Positions 51,026-62,880 of a DNA stretch of 64,000 nucleotides are shown here, one piece after another; positions within the stretch are counted from its first letter, which is position 1; each line of letters opens with the position of its first letter. This DNA is from an uncultured Pseudomonadales bacterium (GTDB lineage Bacteria > Pseudomonadota > Gammaproteobacteria > Pseudomonadales > Pseudohongiellaceae). Below the pieces are notes generated by a model that saw only the letters and a program-made list of their open reading frames with translations, was not told where the DNA came from and ran no database searches. The position numbers and the translations under genes were made by a program. Location: positions 1 through 64,000 of the forward strand of contig CALSUH010000010.1 in NCBI GenBank assembly GCA_943789485.1, written 5' to 3'.

Positions 51026-51985
51026 ATGTCTGACGAAGATGAACAGGATCCTGCACCAAGGATACCAGGGTGGATGGCGTCATTTGCTGACCTCATGACC
51101 TTGTTGTTGTGCTTTTTTGTTTTATTGTTGTCTTTTTCTGAAATGGATGTGATCAAGTATAAGCAGGTAGCAGGTTCCATGCGTCATGCTTTTGGTGTGC
51201 AAAGTGAGATACCCGCATCAGGTATCCCTCTGGGGACTTCCATTATCGCGCAGGAATTTTCATCCGGGCGACCGGATCCTACTGTTGAAAATGTTGTGCA
51301 ACAGCAGACCGTTGATAACTTGCAGATGACTCTGGAGGTTAGGCAATCTGAGGAAGGCGAAGCGCTCGGGTCTTTCGATGCCGACGAGGAGGCCGCTCGC
51401 GAATTACTGATCAGTAAACTAATAAGCATGCGGGCTGACACTGAAGCCGATGCTCAGGCGCTTGCGGAAGTCTTGGGAAAAGAAATTGCCGACGACATGA
51501 TCGACATCGAGTCTGAGTTTAGATCGATCACCATACGAATTAGGGAGCGCGGATCTTTTGGCTCTGGCTCTTCCAGTCTCAATGAAGATTTTATTGATGT
51601 GCTGGAAAAATTAAGAAATGTGCTTTCAGATGTTGAGGGTCAGATTTCTGTTGAGGGCCATACTGATGATGTACCAATCTCTACCGAGTCATTATCATCG
51701 AACTGGCACTTGTCCTCGCAGCGAGCGCTGACTGTGGGGTATGAGTTACTCAAGGATGATGTTATCGACGATTCACGATTTCAGATCGTCGGCTATGCGG
51801 ATAGCAAGCCCTATGCATCTAATGAGACCCCCGATGGGCGTTCGCAGAATCGTCGCGTTGAAATAGTGATACGCCAGGGGGTGGACGAGGCAACATCAGC
51901 CGAGCTAAGAGAGTTGGATGGCCCTGCTCAAGACTTGCTAGATACTCTAGGTATTGAAGAAGCCGATTTGCTATCAAGAATTTAG
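51026..51985 (+). CDS. pomB: Stator protein MotB/PomB-type (second stator pair)
   Basis: PGWMASFADLMTLLLCFFVLLLSFSEMDVIKYKQVAGSMRHAFG; OmpA-like ISVEGHTDDVPISTESLSSNWHLSSQRA. Confidence 0.87.
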   Translation: MSDEDEQDPAPRIPGWMASFADLMTLLLCFFVLLLSFSEMDVIKYKQVAGSMRHAFGVQSEIPASGIPLGTSIIAQEFSSGRPDPTVENVVQQQTVDNLQMTLEVRQSEEGEALGSFDADEEAARELLISKLISMRADTEADAQALAEVLGKEIADDMIDIESEFRSITIRIRERGSFGSGSSSLNEDFIDVLEKLRNVLSDVEGQISVEGHTDDVPISTESLSSNWHLSSQRALTVGYELLKDDVIDDSRFQIVGYADSKPYASNETPDGRSQNRRVEIVIRQGVDEATSAELRELDGPAQDLLDTLGIEEADLLSRI

Positions 51986-51992
51986 GACTGCT

Positions 51993-52685
51993 ATGAATAC
52001 GGAAAGACGGCGTTATTTTAGAATAATTGATGTTATAGATCTGTCATTCAGTGTTGTTAAGGATGTCATTGAGGAGCAGAGGTTGTCGAATCAGGCACCG
52101 ACTGCAGCACAATTGCTGCAAGCCAGTGATGAGGAATTTGGCACCTTGATCAATGCAATCTGGAACGGGGATGCCAAGCTGGCAAAGGCCCTGAGTATTC
52201 TTAATCGTAAGGTCGACATCCTAGCTGCACATGTTGGCATTGATCCAGACGACAATGAATCTTCGCTTTATGATCATAGTTACAAAGAGGTAGAGGTTTC
52301 CTTGAGTGGCTGCGGAATAGCCTTTTCTTGTGAGGAGCAGGTTGCGAAGGATAGCAAGCTCGCTTTGTTACTAGCTTTGAAGCCCTCTAGCATTAAAATT
52401 GAGGCATATGGCACCGTTGTCGCCTGCGAGGAGAACGACGCCGAAAGTGACCAGCCGTATATTATTCGAGTAGATCTCAAAATGAAGTCGCAAGAAGAGG
52501 ATCTACTAATCAGGCATTGTGTGCAGCGGCAAGTAGCGCTTCTGCACAAGGACGACCAGGACTGTCAGAGCGACCAAGACAACCAGAACGACCAAGACAA
52601 CCAGAACGACCAAGACAATCAGAGCGACCAAGACAACCAGAACGACCAAGACAATCAGAGCGACCAAGACGATCTGAAGGCCTAG
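51993..52685 (+). CDS. PilZ-like protein with C-terminal hydrophilic hexapeptide repeat
   Basis: N-terminal MNTERRRYFRI (RxxxR), later SLSGCGIAF; C-terminus (S/N)DQDNQ repeats. ORF track start is 51954; the ATG is at 51993. Confidence 0.75.
   Translation: MNTERRRYFRIIDVIDLSFSVVKDVIEEQRLSNQAPTAAQLLQASDEEFGTLINAIWNGDAKLAKALSILNRKVDILAAHVGIDPDDNESSLYDHSYKEVEVSLSGCGIAFSCEEQVAKDSKLALLLALKPSSIKIEAYGTVVACEENDAESDQPYIIRVDLKMKSQEEDLLIRHCVQRQVALLHKDDQDCQSDQDNQNDQDNQNDQDNQSDQDNQNDQDNQSDQDDLKA
52551..52676 (+). repeat. 18-bp in-frame tandem repeat, about seven units
   Basis: Units of type (a/g)(a/g)cgaccaagacaa(c/t)cag encode DDQDCQ/SDQDNQ/NDQDNQ x2/SDQDNQ/NDQDNQ/SDQDDL. Confidence 0.9.
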
Positions 52686-55373: not shown

Positions 55374-55447
55374 AAAGGGGACGGAGGGATTTATTTTTGA
55401 TCAATCAAGCTGCCGATTGGTCAAAAATAAATCCCTCCGTCCCCTTT
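55374..55447. repeat. REP-like long hairpin
   Basis: 33-nt arms aaaggggacggagggatttatttttgatcaatc / gattggtcaaaaataaatccctccgtccccttt (one mismatch), 8-nt loop. Confidence 0.9.
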
Positions 55448-55752
55448 AATTTCGTGCAGTTGACAAAGTCTAGTTATGAAAGTTAAATGATCGAAGTGAA
55501 TTGTTTAAAAGTTCAGATAAGCAATTAAAAGTGGGGCCGATGTTTAGTTTTTTCGCAACACAGTTATCAAATCTCAGTGGGGATCGCTGTGCCTAAATGA
55601 AGTAGCGCGCCTTTAGTAAAAATTTGCAATAGAGGGATTCTACAAAATGTGCCTTAAAAAAGTTGACCGTCACATGCCTTCTGTTACATCGGCAGAAACA
55701 GCTGCCGTATTGACAATCTATGTCGAAGTCAGTTGTTCGCTGACGAATCTAA

Positions 55753-57168
55753 ATGCTGCCGGCATCGTCGCTCAGAAACTACGAGCCTTTCGTGCAAGTT
55801 AATTCAGAGCTTAAAACAAACACCTATCCGAGCCCGCGGCGCGCTTGGTCTATGGTGAGTCTACTCACCATATTGTATATTTTTTCTTTTCTTGACCGCA
55901 CTATTATTGTGCTGCTCATTGAGCCAATTAAAGCGGATCTGGGTCTAAGTGACACGCAAATTAGCCTGTTATACGGGTTTGCGTTTGCCTTGTTTTATAC
56001 CTTTTTGGGTATACCCATAGCACGGCTTGCTGACCGGCGCAGTCGTCGAACCATAATCATGGTTGGGGTCGCGATTTGGAGTGTAATGACTGCGATTTGT
56101 GGCATTACTCGTAATTTTGCGCAACTGTTTGCGGCGCGTATTGGAGTGGGCGTGGGTGAGGCAGCCTTGTCTCCGGCGGCTTATTCTCTAATTTCTGATT
56201 CTTTTCCCCCAGCTGAACGTGCCAGAGCCATGAGTGTGTACACGATGGGGCTATATCTAGGGGTTGGATTTTCCTTGCTTTTAGGAGGGGTTGTCATTGA
56301 ATGGATTGGTGCCACCGGGTCGGTTGAATTACCCATTGTTGGCGAGATCCGTGCCTGGCAAATGACCTTCATTGCGGTGGGCCTGCCGGGTTTGTTGTTA
56401 GCCGGCCTTATGATGACGGTTCGGGAACCGGTGCGTCAGGAGTTGGGTTTGGCCCAAGCGAACACTGAGGCCGACCAAGTCAGTTTGCGTGATTCATTCG
56501 AGTGGTTTGCCAAGCGCTGGCGTTTTTATGCCGTATTCTGCCTCGCCATGTCTTGCTTGGTGTTGTATTCATATTCGCTTACCGCCTGGACACCCTCTTT
56601 CTTCATTCGCACACACGATTGGACGTCGTTGGAGGTTAGTCGGTACTACGGATTGGTGGTTTTAATATTCGGGCCAACGGGTATATTGTTTGGTGGTTGG
56701 TGGGCGAGCCGTCGTGCACGGCGTGGTGATATTGTTGCCAACGTGCGCGTGGCTGTTGTCTGTTTTGCCTTGCTTATCGTGCCAGCGGGCGCGATGACAC
56801 TGCTCGATGATCCGAATCATACGCTGGTCTTGATGGCGGTTGTAAAGTTTGTTTCTGGGCTACCCTTAGGTATAGCTGTAGCGGCGATGCATGAAGTGAC
56901 ACCTAATCGATTGCGGGCGCAAGCAGTCGGTCTGTACATGTTCACCATCAATCTAATCGGCTTGGGCTTTGGGCCAACCGCCGTCGCTTTGCTGACCGAC
57001 TACCTATTCGGTGACCCACAGATGTTGCGCTATTCCATGGCTATAGTTGGGTCTATTTCCTGTTTCATTGGGTTGCTGCTAACGGTGTATGCGCAAAAAC
57101 ATTTTCGAGTGCAAAAAACGTCCTATGCCTCTTCTGAGCATCCTACCAATAGCATTGATGCCGTTTAA
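55753..57168 (+). CDS. MFS transporter (spinster-like)
   Basis: LLTILYIFSFLDRTIIVLLIEPIKADLGLSDTQISLLYGFAFALFYTFLGIPIARLADRRSRR. Confidence 0.9.
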   Translation: MLPASSLRNYEPFVQVNSELKTNTYPSPRRAWSMVSLLTILYIFSFLDRTIIVLLIEPIKADLGLSDTQISLLYGFAFALFYTFLGIPIARLADRRSRRTIIMVGVAIWSVMTAICGITRNFAQLFAARIGVGVGEAALSPAAYSLISDSFPPAERARAMSVYTMGLYLGVGFSLLLGGVVIEWIGATGSVELPIVGEIRAWQMTFIAVGLPGLLLAGLMMTVREPVRQELGLAQANTEADQVSLRDSFEWFAKRWRFYAVFCLAMSCLVLYSYSLTAWTPSFFIRTHDWTSLEVSRYYGLVVLIFGPTGILFGGWWASRRARRGDIVANVRVAVVCFALLIVPAGAMTLLDDPNHTLVLMAVVKFVSGLPLGIAVAAMHEVTPNRLRAQAVGLYMFTINLIGLGFGPTAVALLTDYLFGDPQMLRYSMAIVGSISCFIGLLLTVYAQKHFRVQKTSYASSEHPTNSIDAV

Positions 57169-57244
57169 CAATCTCTAGTTTGAGGTACATGCTGACAATA
57201 CTTAGCGAGTCATTCGTTAGTCGGCACTAATGTAGCCAGCAGTG

Positions 57245-58945
57245 CTAGGTTAAAGGTTGTTTTTCATTAAACAGCGGTCGGAGTTCGCGCCTCAATACTT
57301 TGCCAGTAGCGTTGGTTGGCAGAGCACTGACAACGCGAAGCTGTTCCGGAAGTTTGAAAACGGCAATGCCAAGTTCTAGCAGGTAGGCAGATATTTCCTG
57401 TAATTCAATCGCTTCGCCTGGAGCGGGGACCACTACGGCTCCGACGCGTTCCCCCAGTATTTCATCATCGTAAGCTGTCACAGCGACTGCGCTGATTTTG
57501 GGGTGCCCGGCCAGCAAGCGGTCGATTTCATCGGGAGAAATGTTCATGCCGCCGCGTACAATGATGTCTTTCGAGCGACCAACGAAGCGATAGTACATTG
57601 ATTTTTCTGGGTGTTCGGCTATCTCAAATACATCGCCAGTACGAAAGTAACCGTCGTCGGAAAACACCTCGGCATTGTCCTGCTCGGACTGCCAATAGCC
57701 GTCGAATACCGAGGGTCCTGATATTTCCAGTTCGCCCTGCTTTCCTGATACCAGGATTTCATTCCGGGTATCGGGATCAACAATTCGTGTTTTTGTCATC
57801 TTGGAGATGCGGCTTTTCCATTGCACGTTTGGTAAGCCGTATCGAGGAAAGTAAGCAGCTCTATTTGCCGAGTCGGGCACATCAATGACAGTTGAAGACA
57901 AGCTCATGCCTTCGTTTGAGCCAAACATATTATTGATCGGAATGTTGTACTCAGATTGAATCGTATCCACCAACCACTCCGTGAGGGGAGAGCCACCGGA
58001 ACCAAGAATTCGTATGCTACTTAAATCCGCTGCCGCCATAATCTCTGGCTGCTTGAGCAGCATGTTGAGTACCGCGGGCGCAGCAACGGTATAGGTGATT
58101 TTTTCGTCGGCAATTTGCTGTAGGAAAACGTTGAGGTCAAGGGGGTGATGCATGACCAAAGTGCCGCCACTGAGTAGCCAGGGAAATAAAAATCCACCCA
58201 GACCCGCCATGTTAACGATTGGGAAGGGACTTAGCAGCACATCGCGATGTGTCAGGTTGGCGGCATCCAAACTGGAGATGCCCGAAATTAGCCAGTGATT
58301 ATGACTGCGCGGCACGCCTTTAGGTGAACCCGTTGTTCCAGAAGTCCAGCAGATGGTAAAGATGTCATTGGCGGATGCCGGGTGCTCATCAATATATGTT
58401 TGCCAGTGCTTAGACGATTTTTGCGTAGATAATGCCAACGGCAAATTCCCATCGGCAATCTGATCACCAAAGCTAAATACCAGACAACTATCCATAAACA
58501 ACAAGCCATGATCAACGCTCAAATTTTTCCCTTTGAGGTTAGATAGCGTGACGTACGCTGCCGGTGCGAGCTTGTCGATTGCTAGTTTTAGCTCGTGTGG
58601 TCCATATTGAACCGGAACCGGGCTAACTATTGCACCGAGTCGCGCCAGAGCCAAATAGGTGATTGGCAATTCGATAATATTGGGTAGCTGTACCACGACT
58701 ATATCGTTCTCACGTATTCCGCCATCAAAAAACGCGATTGATAGGGCATCGATATGCTGACTAAGCTCTCTGAAATTAAGGCGTTTAGGTAAACCGTCAG
58801 TTATTGTCGCGCGATTGGCAGGGTCGATTAACGCGAGGTGGTCTGGTCGCTTGGCAGCTTCTGAATATAAGTCATAGATGGTTCTATTTCCCCACCAACC
58901 GGCCTTCGTGTTCTCATCGATACGTTGTTGGGGGGTGGTTTGCAT
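57245..58945 (-). CDS. AMP-dependent synthetase/ligase (acyl-CoA synthetase family)
   Basis: ICWTSGTTGSPKGVPRSH; GYFRTGDVFEI; GRSKDIIVRGGMNISPDEID; TNATGKVLRRELR. Confidence 0.93.
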   Translation of the reverse strand: MQTTPQQRIDENTKAGWWGNRTIYDLYSEAAKRPDHLALIDPANRATITDGLPKRLNFRELSQHIDALSIAFFDGGIRENDIVVVQLPNIIELPITYLALARLGAIVSPVPVQYGPHELKLAIDKLAPAAYVTLSNLKGKNLSVDHGLLFMDSCLVFSFGDQIADGNLPLALSTQKSSKHWQTYIDEHPASANDIFTICWTSGTTGSPKGVPRSHNHWLISGISSLDAANLTHRDVLLSPFPIVNMAGLGGFLFPWLLSGGTLVMHHPLDLNVFLQQIADEKITYTVAAPAVLNMLLKQPEIMAAADLSSIRILGSGGSPLTEWLVDTIQSEYNIPINNMFGSNEGMSLSSTVIDVPDSANRAAYFPRYGLPNVQWKSRISKMTKTRIVDPDTRNEILVSGKQGELEISGPSVFDGYWQSEQDNAEVFSDDGYFRTGDVFEIAEHPEKSMYYRFVGRSKDIIVRGGMNISPDEIDRLLAGHPKISAVAVTAYDDEILGERVGAVVVPAPGEAIELQEISAYLLELGIAVFKLPEQLRVVSALPTNATGKVLRRELRPLFNEKQPLT

Positions 58946-58999
58946 AGAATTACGCTCCGATTGTTGCGGTAAAATACCCTGCCAGGCCGGCGAAGAATG

Positions 59000-59014
59000 A
59001 AAGTCTAGTTAGCG
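59000..59014 (+). promoter_or_regulatory. Shared motif AAAGTCTAGTTAGCG (copy 1)
   Basis: 15-nt match to copy 2 in the same divergent promoter region. Confidence 0.45.
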
Positions 59015-59150
59015 CGAATATATAAAGCAACAGGCTAACCTTTAGTTGGTCCGCGACATCTGTGTATTGCTAGTATTTATTGGCTGATTTGCGCTGAATT
59101 TGCTAATGATATACCCCTGAGTTTGTAGTCCTTATCATTAATGATATAGT

Positions 59151-59165
59151 AAAGTCTAGTTAGCG
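59151..59165 (+). promoter_or_regulatory. Shared motif AAAGTCTAGTTAGCG (copy 2)
   Basis: 15-nt match to copy 1. Confidence 0.45.
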
Positions 59166-59221
59166 AAGTATGTCACCTATTAAAATTGTGCAACTCGGTA
59201 CTATCAAATACAGAGGCAGTA

Positions 59222-60796
59222 ATGAGTGAATCCACCATTAATGATGCAGCGAGTACAGCGCGGCTTAGCCCAGAAAATTTGCCCCTGACATTTCGGAATG
59301 TTGAGCCTCATTCGCCTGCTGGTGCTCCGCCTGAAGGAGGGCCGGACTGGATTTGGGAGGTTGACCACCCTTACCTGCATGGACTCTTTGCACCAGTGGA
59401 TACGGAGGTGTCCGAAGATAAGCTCGTGGTTGAGCAAGGTGAAATACCGGCTGATTTGTACGGGATGTATGTTGTCAATGGCCCTTCGCAGCGATTTAAA
59501 CCGGCGTCGAAATACCACTACTATGATGGTGACGGCATGCTCAATGCCATTCGCTTTAAAGATGGCAAGGCATCTTATGCGTCCAAGTGGATTCGGACAT
59601 TCGAATTTAACGAAGAAGAAAAAGCGGGTAAAAACATATGGCCGGGGATATCGGGCCCATTTAATTATGAATTGCCGCACTCGCCGATAAAGGACAATTC
59701 CAATACCGATGTCATTTTCTACGCGGGAAAATTGATTAGCCTATGGTACTTGGCAGGCACTCCTTACAGCATTGAGCCGCTCACCCTGGAAACGCATGGC
59801 CCGGAAGACTTTAACGGCGCCCTGAAGCACAATTTATCTGCACACAGTAAAGTTGATCCCCGCACCGGTGAGTTACTATTTTTTAACTATCAGGATAAAG
59901 AGCCCTACATGAGTTATGGGCTCGCTGATAGCTCCGGAAAAATGTTGTTCGACATACCTATTGATATACCCGGCGCGCGTTCTCCACACGATATGGGGAT
60001 TACCAAAAATTATTCAGTGTTGCATGACCTGCCTTACTTCCAAGATCCTAAGATATTCAAGCAACATAAGCAGCGCGTTGTGCGTTTTCATCGCGATGTA
60101 CCGGCTCGCTTCGGCGTGATTCCTCGTTATGGCGGGTCCAGCGACATTCGCTGGTTTGAAGCTGAGCCATGTTACGTTTTGCACGTGGTGAATACCTGGG
60201 AAGAAGGGGATGAAATCGTGATGGTCGGTTGCCGGCAACCAAACCCCGGAGGCGTTCGCGACAAGAGTGAAGCCCCGCTACATTCGCAACTTAGCGAGCG
60301 GCGTCGGCAACATGAGCTATACCAATGGCGCTTTAATTTAAAGAACGGCGCGACACGCGAATGCGTATTGGATGATACCAATACAGAATTTCCAACCATT
60401 AATTCGATGCTTATAGGTGAGAAAACGCGGTACGCATACAATCAGCTGATTCCAATCATGGATCCGAATGGCGGTGTAAGTGGTCGCTGCCAAACCTTTG
60501 ATGCATTGTTTAAGTACGATGTCACCAATGGCAGTTACCAGCGCTACGATTATGGTGAACGACGATCGGGTAGTGAGACTCACTTTGCGCCCAAAAAAGG
60601 TGCTGGATTCGACATGGTGGAAGACGATGGTTATTTAGTCACCTATGTTCATGACGCAAACGATTGGACATCGCGGTGCCTGATATTTGATGCGCAGGAT
60701 ATCGAACAGGGACCGATTGCCATTGTGCGTATGCCCCGGCGTTTTAATATTGGGTTTCACGCCACCTGGGTTAGAGGTGAAGAATTGGGCTTATAA
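59222..60796 (+). CDS. Carotenoid oxygenase / lignostilbene dioxygenase family protein
   Basis: GMYVVNGPSQRFKPASKYHYYDGDGMLNAIRF; four candidate Fe-ligand His segments: LSAHSKVD, SPHDMGITKNY, CYVLHVVNTWEEGDEIV, IGFHATWV. ORF track start 59186; likely ATG 59222. Confidence 0.92.
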   Translation: MSESTINDAASTARLSPENLPLTFRNVEPHSPAGAPPEGGPDWIWEVDHPYLHGLFAPVDTEVSEDKLVVEQGEIPADLYGMYVVNGPSQRFKPASKYHYYDGDGMLNAIRFKDGKASYASKWIRTFEFNEEEKAGKNIWPGISGPFNYELPHSPIKDNSNTDVIFYAGKLISLWYLAGTPYSIEPLTLETHGPEDFNGALKHNLSAHSKVDPRTGELLFFNYQDKEPYMSYGLADSSGKMLFDIPIDIPGARSPHDMGITKNYSVLHDLPYFQDPKIFKQHKQRVVRFHRDVPARFGVIPRYGGSSDIRWFEAEPCYVLHVVNTWEEGDEIVMVGCRQPNPGGVRDKSEAPLHSQLSERRRQHELYQWRFNLKNGATRECVLDDTNTEFPTINSMLIGEKTRYAYNQLIPIMDPNGGVSGRCQTFDALFKYDVTNGSYQRYDYGERRSGSETHFAPKKGAGFDMVEDDGYLVTYVHDANDWTSRCLIFDAQDIEQGPIAIVRMPRRFNIGFHATWVRGEELGL

Positions 60797-60903: not shown

Positions 60904-61827
60904 CTAACCCATCAGACGGCCTTGCCGGACATCTTCCATGTAGAGGCGACGATTACAGTGATCGCATACCATGACAAAGCCTTCGATAGACCCGCAAGAC
61001 TTGTGTTTAATGAGGTCAGCAGGCCCGTTGTTCCCAGCTAACCAACGGTCGCCCCACTGCAATAGTGAGACAATAACCGGATAGACATCTTTGCCCATGG
61101 GTGTTGTGTCGTAGTGAATCATGCGTTTGTCGGTTGTGCTTTGGTTTTGAGTTAGTAAATTTAGCGATGACAGCATTTTTATTCGCGTTGACAAAACATT
61201 ATTTGATATTCCCAGTGTTTTTTGTAGGGCATCGAACGTAATTACTCGATTAATAATGGCGTTTAGAACAAGCAGACTCCATCCATCGCCAACGATAACG
61301 GTAACCATCTCGTTGGCGGCTTTGGACTGATACTGATTGACGATGCGAGTTCGTCTCGTGGCTGGCGGCGCAAACTTTGTATTGGGAAAACGCGCAGCAA
61401 AGGATAGCTCGCCAGCTTTAACAGAGCCTGTGCAAGATCGGCAGACAAACTCCGGCGTAATCTGATGACCACAGCTAGTGTGAATGAGTTGTTCTGGTAG
61501 ATGGTGTGGAGTTTGGTGCCAATGTTTATGCCAGCGCCATACCCCAAGAATCATGGAGTACAAATCCACGCCCTTAGGCGTTAACCGGTATTCAAAGATG
61601 AGGCGACGATGTTGTACCGGCTTCTTGTAATAAAGCTGATTGATAACCATCTGCCGAAGGCGGAGTATCAGGGTTTGTCGAGGTATGCCTAGGCGAGATT
61701 GAAAATCTTGGAATCGCCTTGTGCCTAGAAATGATTCTTTCAGGATATGGAGTGTCCAGGGGTCGCCAATAACACTGAGTGACTTGCTCAGTGATATGGG
61801 TACATCCCTAGCCTCTGATCTGGGCAC
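60904..61827 (-). CDS. Transcriptional regulator with two HxlR-type winged-helix domains
   Basis: First domain GDPWTLHILKESFLGTRRFQDFQSRLGIPRQTLILRLRQM; second GDGWSLLVLNAIINRVITFDALQKTLGISNNVLSTRIKML; each followed by a Cys-containing tail. Confidence 0.85.
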   Translation of the reverse strand: MPRSEARDVPISLSKSLSVIGDPWTLHILKESFLGTRRFQDFQSRLGIPRQTLILRLRQMVINQLYYKKPVQHRRLIFEYRLTPKGVDLYSMILGVWRWHKHWHQTPHHLPEQLIHTSCGHQITPEFVCRSCTGSVKAGELSFAARFPNTKFAPPATRRTRIVNQYQSKAANEMVTVIVGDGWSLLVLNAIINRVITFDALQKTLGISNNVLSTRIKMLSSLNLLTQNQSTTDKRMIHYDTTPMGKDVYPVIVSLLQWGDRWLAGNNGPADLIKHKSCGSIEGFVMVCDHCNRRLYMEDVRQGRLMG

Positions 61828-61950: not shown

Positions 61951-62880
61951 ATGAGCGAAAGAGAACGGCTAAATAAAAGGCTGCCGGTATTCTGCGCCCC
62001 GATGTTTCTAGTGTCGGGCCCAGAGTTAGTTATTGCTGCCTGCAAAGCTGGAATATCTGGATCATTTCCATCCACTAACACGCGCACAATCGAAGAGTTG
62101 GATCAATGGATGAAGCAAATTTCTGATGCGCTAACTCCGAATGATGCTCCGTGGATTATGAATCTCATAACGCATTCGAGCTATCCGCGGCTCGATGAAG
62201 ATTTGGAGCTCGTTGCGAAATATAAACCGGCTGCTGTTATCACGGCTCTCGGCTCACCGAGACCTGTTATGGAAACCGTTAAGTCCTACGGTGGTCTTGT
62301 ATTCGCTGATGTTGTGAATCTAAGGCTCGCGAAAAAAGCAGCGCAGGCAGGTGTTGACGGATTAGCTTGTATTAGCTCAGGAGCGGGCGGGCATACCGGG
62401 GAGCTATCGCCGTTCGCGTTTATCTCTGCTGTTCGAGAATTCTTCGACGGTTATATCGCCGTTGGTGGAGGGATTTCCGATGGCGCTGGCATTGCCGGTG
62501 CCATCGCCGCCGGCGCCGACTTTGTTTATATGGGCACGCGGTTTCTAGCGGCTAAAGAAAGTATGGCGCCACAGGAGTACAAAGAGATGGTAGTTGCGGC
62601 GACATCGGAGGATTTGGTTGTCTCAGCTGCGATCACCGGAACGAAAGCGTCGTGGTTGAGGGCAAGCTTGCAAAAGGCCGGGCTAAATCCGGATAGTCTG
62701 GGCGAATCAATAGAGAGGAATTACACAGGAGTCTCGGGCAAAAAACGCTGGAACGGCATATGGGCAGCCGGTCAAGGTGTTGGCCGCAGTCGGACGATTG
62801 AGCCGGCTGCCGCTATTGTCGATGAACTGGAGCGTGAATATCGAGTCGCGGTTGATCGCTTTAAGAGAGTTGTCGCTTAG
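61951..62880 (+). CDS. Nitronate monooxygenase / NMO-like FMN protein
   Basis: LPVFCAPMFLVSGPELVIAACKAGISGSFPS; GVDGLACISSGAGGHTGELSPFAFISAVREFFDGYIAVGGGISDGAGIAGAIAAGADFVYMGTRFLAAKES. Confidence 0.9.
   Translation: MSERERLNKRLPVFCAPMFLVSGPELVIAACKAGISGSFPSTNTRTIEELDQWMKQISDALTPNDAPWIMNLITHSSYPRLDEDLELVAKYKPAAVITALGSPRPVMETVKSYGGLVFADVVNLRLAKKAAQAGVDGLACISSGAGGHTGELSPFAFISAVREFFDGYIAVGGGISDGAGIAGAIAAGADFVYMGTRFLAAKESMAPQEYKEMVVAATSEDLVVSAAITGTKASWLRASLQKAGLNPDSLGESIERNYTGVSGKKRWNGIWAAGQGVGRSRTIEPAAAIVDELEREYRVAVDRFKRVVA

Follow-up and report, generated by a model that had tools for sequence, protein, structure and literature searches.

Putative asymmetric operators of a tandem HxlR regulator in a carotenoid oxygenase gene cluster of an uncultured Pseudomonadales bacterium

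The described regulators most closely related to the protein considered here are YodB, QsrR, HypR and HxlR, MarR-like members of the HxlR/DUF24 family with which it has the wHTH domain PF01638 in common. Members of this family act as homodimers on inverted repeats, contacting two successive major grooves; the sequence read by YodB is TACT[7]AGTA (PMC8063818), and in HxlR dimers helices 4 and 4' lie 34.8 A apart on DNA (PMC7835342). By sequence as well as by fold, the closest solved structures are PA1607 (2f2e) and PA1374 (4gcv) of Pseudomonas aeruginosa, which are single-domain proteins and match one half of our regulator only. In contrast to YodB, QsrR, HypR and HxlR, this regulator carries two domains with unlike recognition helices in one chain, and its putative operator is asymmetric and its putative targets are catabolic genes. 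The catabolic clusters described for lignostilbene and apocarotenoid dioxygenases likewise combine a carotenoid oxygenase (CCO) with a ligase, an aldehyde dehydrogenase and thiolases. In the open-access literature we found no description of tandem HxlR proteins, of the half-site code reported below, of a link between HxlR regulators and CCO or lignostilbene genes, or of such an asymmetric operator, although an earlier one is possible.

Within the window, by which we mean the whole 64,000-nucleotide stretch of DNA that was analysed, the cluster comprises the following genes:

55753..57168, plus strand, MFS transporter (Pfam MFS_1, E 7e-52)
57245..58945, minus strand, AMP-forming acyl-CoA ligase (Pfam AMP-binding, E 5e-64)
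59222..60796, plus strand, CCO of the RPE65/lignostilbene dioxygenase family (Pfam RPE65, E 7e-120)
60904..61827, minus strand, tandem HxlR-HxlR regulator of 307 aa (Pfam HxlR twice, E 2e-27)
61951..62880, plus strand, nitronate-monooxygenase-like (NMO) enzyme, divergent from the HxlR gene (Pfam NMO, E 1e-24)

An HpcH/HpaI aldolase gene is also found downstream, together with the tandem HxlR and NMO-like genes. In contrast to the enzymes of the described clusters, the CCO lies far under the curated cut-offs of lignostilbene dioxygenase (239 bits against the 800 of the NCBIfam equivalog) and of the 13,14-cleaving enzyme, and it falls under the NCBIfam cut-offs of all named subfamilies. In the regulator, PF01638 is recognised in two stretches (95 bits against a curated cut-off of 20.8), and this is the only HxlR gene detected in the genome (84% complete), both genome hits being its two halves. 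Its AlphaFold model (pLDDT 89.5, pTM 0.89) contains two wHTH units, with the helix/wing order present in each half and the HxlR-type protein PA1607 as the top Foldseek match; the recognition helices read GIPR(50)QTLILRL and GISN(209)NVLSTRI. Where an HxlR protein typically has one domain per chain and works as a homodimer on a symmetric site, we find two domains per chain and a putative site of the form AGT-N11-AGT. The redox sensors YodB and QsrR have a conserved reactive Cys at the N terminus; inspection by eye of the present protein revealed no Cys near its start. Each half ends in H-x2-C-x9-C-x2-C, of which H116, C129, C132, H275, C288 and C291 are invariant in 39 tandem proteins, and it is possible that these ends form a zinc ribbon and sensing site. 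In named genomes, the search for close relatives of the regulator returned a near-identical MAG contig only. Copies of the cluster with 99.8% identity occur in MAG SI074_bin90 and in a genome assigned to another family (L080, G521:C203; L061, JABJKL010000070.1), for which mis-binning is a likelier explanation than a very recent transfer.

The initial annotation of this DNA had reported three copies of a 12-mer, AAAGTCTAGTTA, in the promoters of the cluster, the two in the gap between the ligase and CCO genes being identical over 15 bases and the third a 12-nt version only, and had proposed a genome-wide search. All of this was borne out: the copies lie at 55465-55476, 59000-59011 and 59151-59162, all on the plus strand, the last two share 15 bases, and the first departs after base 12. 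They are the only exact copies in the genome (3.67 Mb, 84% complete), with none outside the cluster, and the pattern read backwards has no copy in the whole 3.67 Mb. The 136 other genomes of the family hold seven copies in total and at most one each. When up to one mismatch is allowed, 0.19 matches per window are expected by chance, and no shuffle reached three; calculated from the family rate, three exact copies would arise by chance in this genome with a probability of about 1e-5 to 1e-4, a figure which leaves out the clustering of the copies within 3.7 kb and their location in promoters. With up to two mismatches there is no genome-wide enrichment (254 matches against 486 for the reversed control), and only near-exact copies are therefore informative.

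The 12-mer does not make up an entire site but corresponds to the left half of an element of 17 bp. The conserved unit extends beyond 12 nt, and the copy upstream of the MFS gene runs on as AAAGTCTAGTTATGAAAGTTAAAT. A palindrome reading of the 12-mer alone, made on unaligned sequence, gave only a weak dyad and was dropped once relatives revealed the 17-mer. We refer to the three extended sites as S1, S2 and S3 and list them with the nearby hexamers, which were assigned from sequence:

55460..55488, plus strand, promoter-like hexamers TTGACA-17-TTAAAT, spacer and -10 covered by S1
55465..55488, plus strand, S1, AAAGTCTAGTTATGAAAGTTAAAT, full putative operator upstream of the MFS gene
55467-55483, plus strand, 17-mer of S1, AGTCTAGTTATGAAAGT, full match to the tandem-HxlR motif
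59000..59018, plus strand, S2, AAAGTCTAGTTAGCGCGAA, left half-site intact and right half degenerate, upstream of the ligase gene (ATG 58945, minus strand)
59017..59022, minus strand, TATATT, -10-like hexamer of the ligase promoter, adjoining S2
59145..59150, plus strand, TATAGT, -10-like hexamer immediately 5' of S3
59151..59169, plus strand, S3, AAAGTCTAGTTAGCGAAGT, putative operator variant AGT-N11-AGT, upstream of the CCO gene (ATG 59222)

S1 reaches 26.4 bits on a matrix built without its own family and family f146, the next best site in the 64-kb window scoring 14.2, and is the sole exact match to RGTNTNNTTATGMAAGTNA in its genome. S2 and S3, which lie in the gap of the divergent ligase and CCO genes about 55 bases from the respective start codons, are not full motif matches. 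The score of S3 on the broad matrix described below is 1.9 bits; the site agrees with S1 at 14 of 17 positions and, in register, with the CCO-promoter site of genome G488 at 13 of 17, and against the RGT-N11-AGT 17-mer near RGTNTNRTWATGMAAGT it keeps both end triplets and 8 of the 12 core positions. S2 has the exact 12-mer and 15 nt in common with S3 but scores -19 bits on the broad matrix, so that only half of an operator is recognisable. A consensus promoter scan called none of the S1, S2 and S3 promoters, whose hexamers are weak, and promoter placement therefore rests on comparison with relatives. A matrix scan of the HxlR/NMO gap of this genome detected no operator copy at the NMO promoter.

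Could the copies reflect chance or local duplication, the 12-mer having been spread by copying or within a REP-like element? An inverted repeat of REP type with perfect 24-bp arms (GGGGACGGAGGGATTTATTTTTGA, 55377-55444) does lie 20 bp upstream of S1. We consider such an origin very improbable, given the chance figure above, the dissimilar flanks of S2 and S3 and, above all, the retention of the element at homologous promoters of other species, footprints which largely refute it. An origin of the motif in the REP element itself was ruled out, S2 and S3 being without the repeat. The same contig also carries a REP-associated-transposase-like ORF (L073:9413-10105), and a palindrome, TATGGTGAGTCTACTCACCATA, at 55851-55872, towards the 5' end of the MFS reading frame, might fold into a hairpin close to the true start codon.

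Neighbourhoods of tandem HxlR genes carry a 17-bp element, RGTNTNRTWATGMAAGT, with AGT at both ends in the same direction. A weight matrix iterated over 22 such neighbourhoods, taken from the same and from other classes of the phylum, yielded 63 sites with the consensus aGTnTnnTtATGcAAGTta. With leave-group-out matrices, matches above 16 bits were found in 15 of the 22 neighbourhoods (shuffles, mean at most 0.15 per neighbourhood), and 15 of 28 tandem loci unused in training were also positive (shuffles, 0.4%), while the motif was found in none of 27 other loci of the own genome and none of 27 unrelated NMO loci. Of the held-out tandem loci, about half, mainly those of family f290, had no clear site. 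Loci L193-L207, mostly from this family, have tandem HxlR genes, several of them beside a CCO gene and most without a clear motif copy, and these may use a diverged operator. Exact matches to RGTNTNNTTATGMAAGTNA number nine in 17 genomes, and for eight of them a tandem HxlR gene lies no more than about 15 kb away; this count is descriptive because RGTNTNNTTATGMAAGTNA was partly derived from the same sites. The co-occurrence of the motif and tandem HxlR genes extends over alpha-, beta- and gammaproteobacteria.

Loci with single-domain HxlR genes were intended as a negative control, and 8 of 28 scored with the motif; inspection showed symmetric versions of it, which gave rise to the idea of a half-site code. 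Single-domain genes have a symmetric element, AGT-N11-ACT or ACT-N11-AGT around CAT-N-ATG, and the ACT...AGT arrangement of the YodB site TACT[7]AGTA resembles their Ser/Thr-type form. Among upstream regions in which 10 or more of the 12 core positions matched, those of single-domain genes were symmetric in 21 cases and mixed in three, whereas those of tandem genes were mixed in 14 and symmetric in two, with one tie (Fisher p = 3e-6). When recognition helices are aligned, the half-site tracks the residue preceding the conserved Asn in I-x-X-N-[IV]-L. For symmetric sites in all data, Arg or Lys goes with AGT/GGT (9/10) and Ser, Thr or Pro with ACT (10/10; p = 1e-4), and for held-out single HxlR genes of 12 genomes the counts are 5/5 and 4/4 (p = 0.008); these p-values are optimistic, since ties, mixed calls and genes with other residues were left out and related genes were counted. 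Tandem proteins have, nearly always, Arg or Lys in the first domain and Ser, Thr or Pro in the second, so that one domain of each helix type would explain the asymmetric operator. There are exceptions to the code: the sites of L186/L187 and of the ortholog in genome G1053 look like AGT-N11-ACT despite Ser in the C-terminal domains. The regulator encoded in the window carries Arg50 in its first domain, and S1-S3 all have the same left half, AGTCTAGT. At the code position of the second domain stands Asn209 and not Ser or Thr, and the right half differs among the three sites.

These observations suggest how the regulator might read its sites. Fusion of two HxlR domains with unlike recognition helices would make the chain a built-in heterodimer, and the asymmetric AGT-N11-AGT site can be seen as an AGT half that faces an ACT half. 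On this view the left half, common to S1-S3, would be contacted by the Arg-type N-terminal domain, and the right half, which is intact in S1, partly kept in S3 and lost in S2, by the C-terminal domain. The simplest account is a fused pair with unlike helices on an asymmetric 17-mer; its weakest steps are S2 and the assignment of domains to halves. The sites might instead bind another regulator of the same pathway, the tandem HxlR being a mere neighbour, and the poor fit of S2 to the broad motif would agree with this. We regard it as distinctly unlikely: in many genera, whether the motif is symmetric or asymmetric goes with the architecture of the HxlR protein and with its recognition helix, the motif surrounds tandem HxlR genes even where the other neighbours differ, and the genome has no second detected HxlR gene.

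Tandem HxlR genes are also linked to carotenoid-oxygenase genes. A CCO gene lies within 1.5 kb of 26 of 49 tandem HxlR genes and of none of 46 single-domain ones, and at least one gene for a CCO, ligase, NMO, thiolase, aldehyde dehydrogenase or lipocalin-like protein lies within this distance of 39/49 and 0/46, respectively; as the tandem set was collected by a profile seeded with CCO neighbours, it may favour the CCO link.

Conservation of the element was seen at homologous promoters. The sole other carrier of a tandem HxlR gene in the same family (G019) has this gene in divergent orientation to an NMO-ligase-thiolase-thiolase-lipocalin-aldehyde dehydrogenase-CCO array, and the gap of 71 bp between HxlR and NMO contains AAGTCTTGTTATGAAAGCTACAT, identical to S1 at 20 of 23 bases, with the footprint AAGTCTTGTTATGAAAG at the promoter of the same genes. 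In family f146, five species have the tandem HxlR gene divergent from the CCO gene, and all five gaps contain TAGTYTCATARWMGWAGTTA right at the -10. TATAGT, the hexamer beside S3, carries an operator-type site also in the CCO promoters of G392, G279 and G513, and in G1053, which has the nearest full-length relative of the regulator (50% identity), AAAGTCTAG directly follows TATAAT. The Cupriavidus plasmids pRK1-2 and pENH92 have the same gene set (NMO, adenylate-forming enzyme, CCO, MFS, tandem HxlR and thiolase) and, like G019, the HxlR/NMO arrangement found here. Their putative operators are located as follows:

L279:12340-14900, RGTTCATATATTGAAGT-type putative operators of pRK1-2, homologous CCO cluster
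L280:12537-15080, RGTTCATATATTGAAGT-type putative operators of pENH92, homologous CCO cluster

Each cluster has about four such sites, located between the NMO and HxlR genes and upstream of the thiolase and transporter genes; in the alignment of the NMO/HxlR gap they rank with the best-conserved blocks. The Cupriavidus proteins have Lys in the first and Pro in the second helix, and the site, GGT- or AGT-N11-AGT, matches the prediction of the code. These clusters offer a good laboratory system.

Based on these footprints, the held-out motif tests, the co-occurrence with tandem HxlR genes and the lack of any other HxlR gene detected in the genome, we believe that S1-S3 are very probably operators of the tandem HxlR protein (60904-61827), which would most likely repress the MFS, ligase and CCO promoters; the guess of the initial annotation that the motif is an operator of this regulator is thereby supported. 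In relatives the 17-mer starts within or directly after the -10 and covers +1, and this overlap makes repression the likelier sign. Sites at -10/+1 or in a promoter spacer normally block polymerase. The regulator would hold the three promoters repressed until released by a compound of the pathway, a pathway intermediate being the natural guess for the inducer. The sign of regulation is uncertain given that the B. subtilis protein HxlR works as an activator that depends on formaldehyde (PMC7835342), and the weak -35 hexamers at S2 and S3 are as found at activated promoters. That the tandem HxlR acts on S1-S3 as an activator nevertheless seems unlikely in view of the position of the 17-mer in relatives and of S1, which fills the TTGACA-17-TTAAAT spacer. 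It is less credible still, to the point of being hardly worth entertaining, that an RNA-level element such as a leader or small RNA target is involved: S3 would sit at the 5' end of the CCO transcript, but S2 would be antisense for the ligase gene and S1 overlaps the promoter itself.

On this reading the three-copy motif leads to a testable regulon and to a simple rule of DNA recognition for a family of regulators that is very common in bacteria, and, provided that the code holds, a single helix residue would suffice to predict the operators of uncharacterised HxlR proteins. In the fused form nature would offer an example of a gene fusion that lets a dimeric repressor adopt an asymmetric site. 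We lean towards the view that such single-chain, pseudo-heterodimeric repressors with a one-residue code and asymmetric operators are widespread in Pseudomonadota and control an uncharacterised CCO/ligase/thiolase catabolic pathway, the members of which would be marked by tandem-HxlR operators in many genomes of this phylum.

Upstream of the cluster, a minisatellite encoding a DQDNQ/SDQDNQN repeat was observed at about 52590-52685, at the 3' end of an ORF (51954-52685) behind a motB-like gene.
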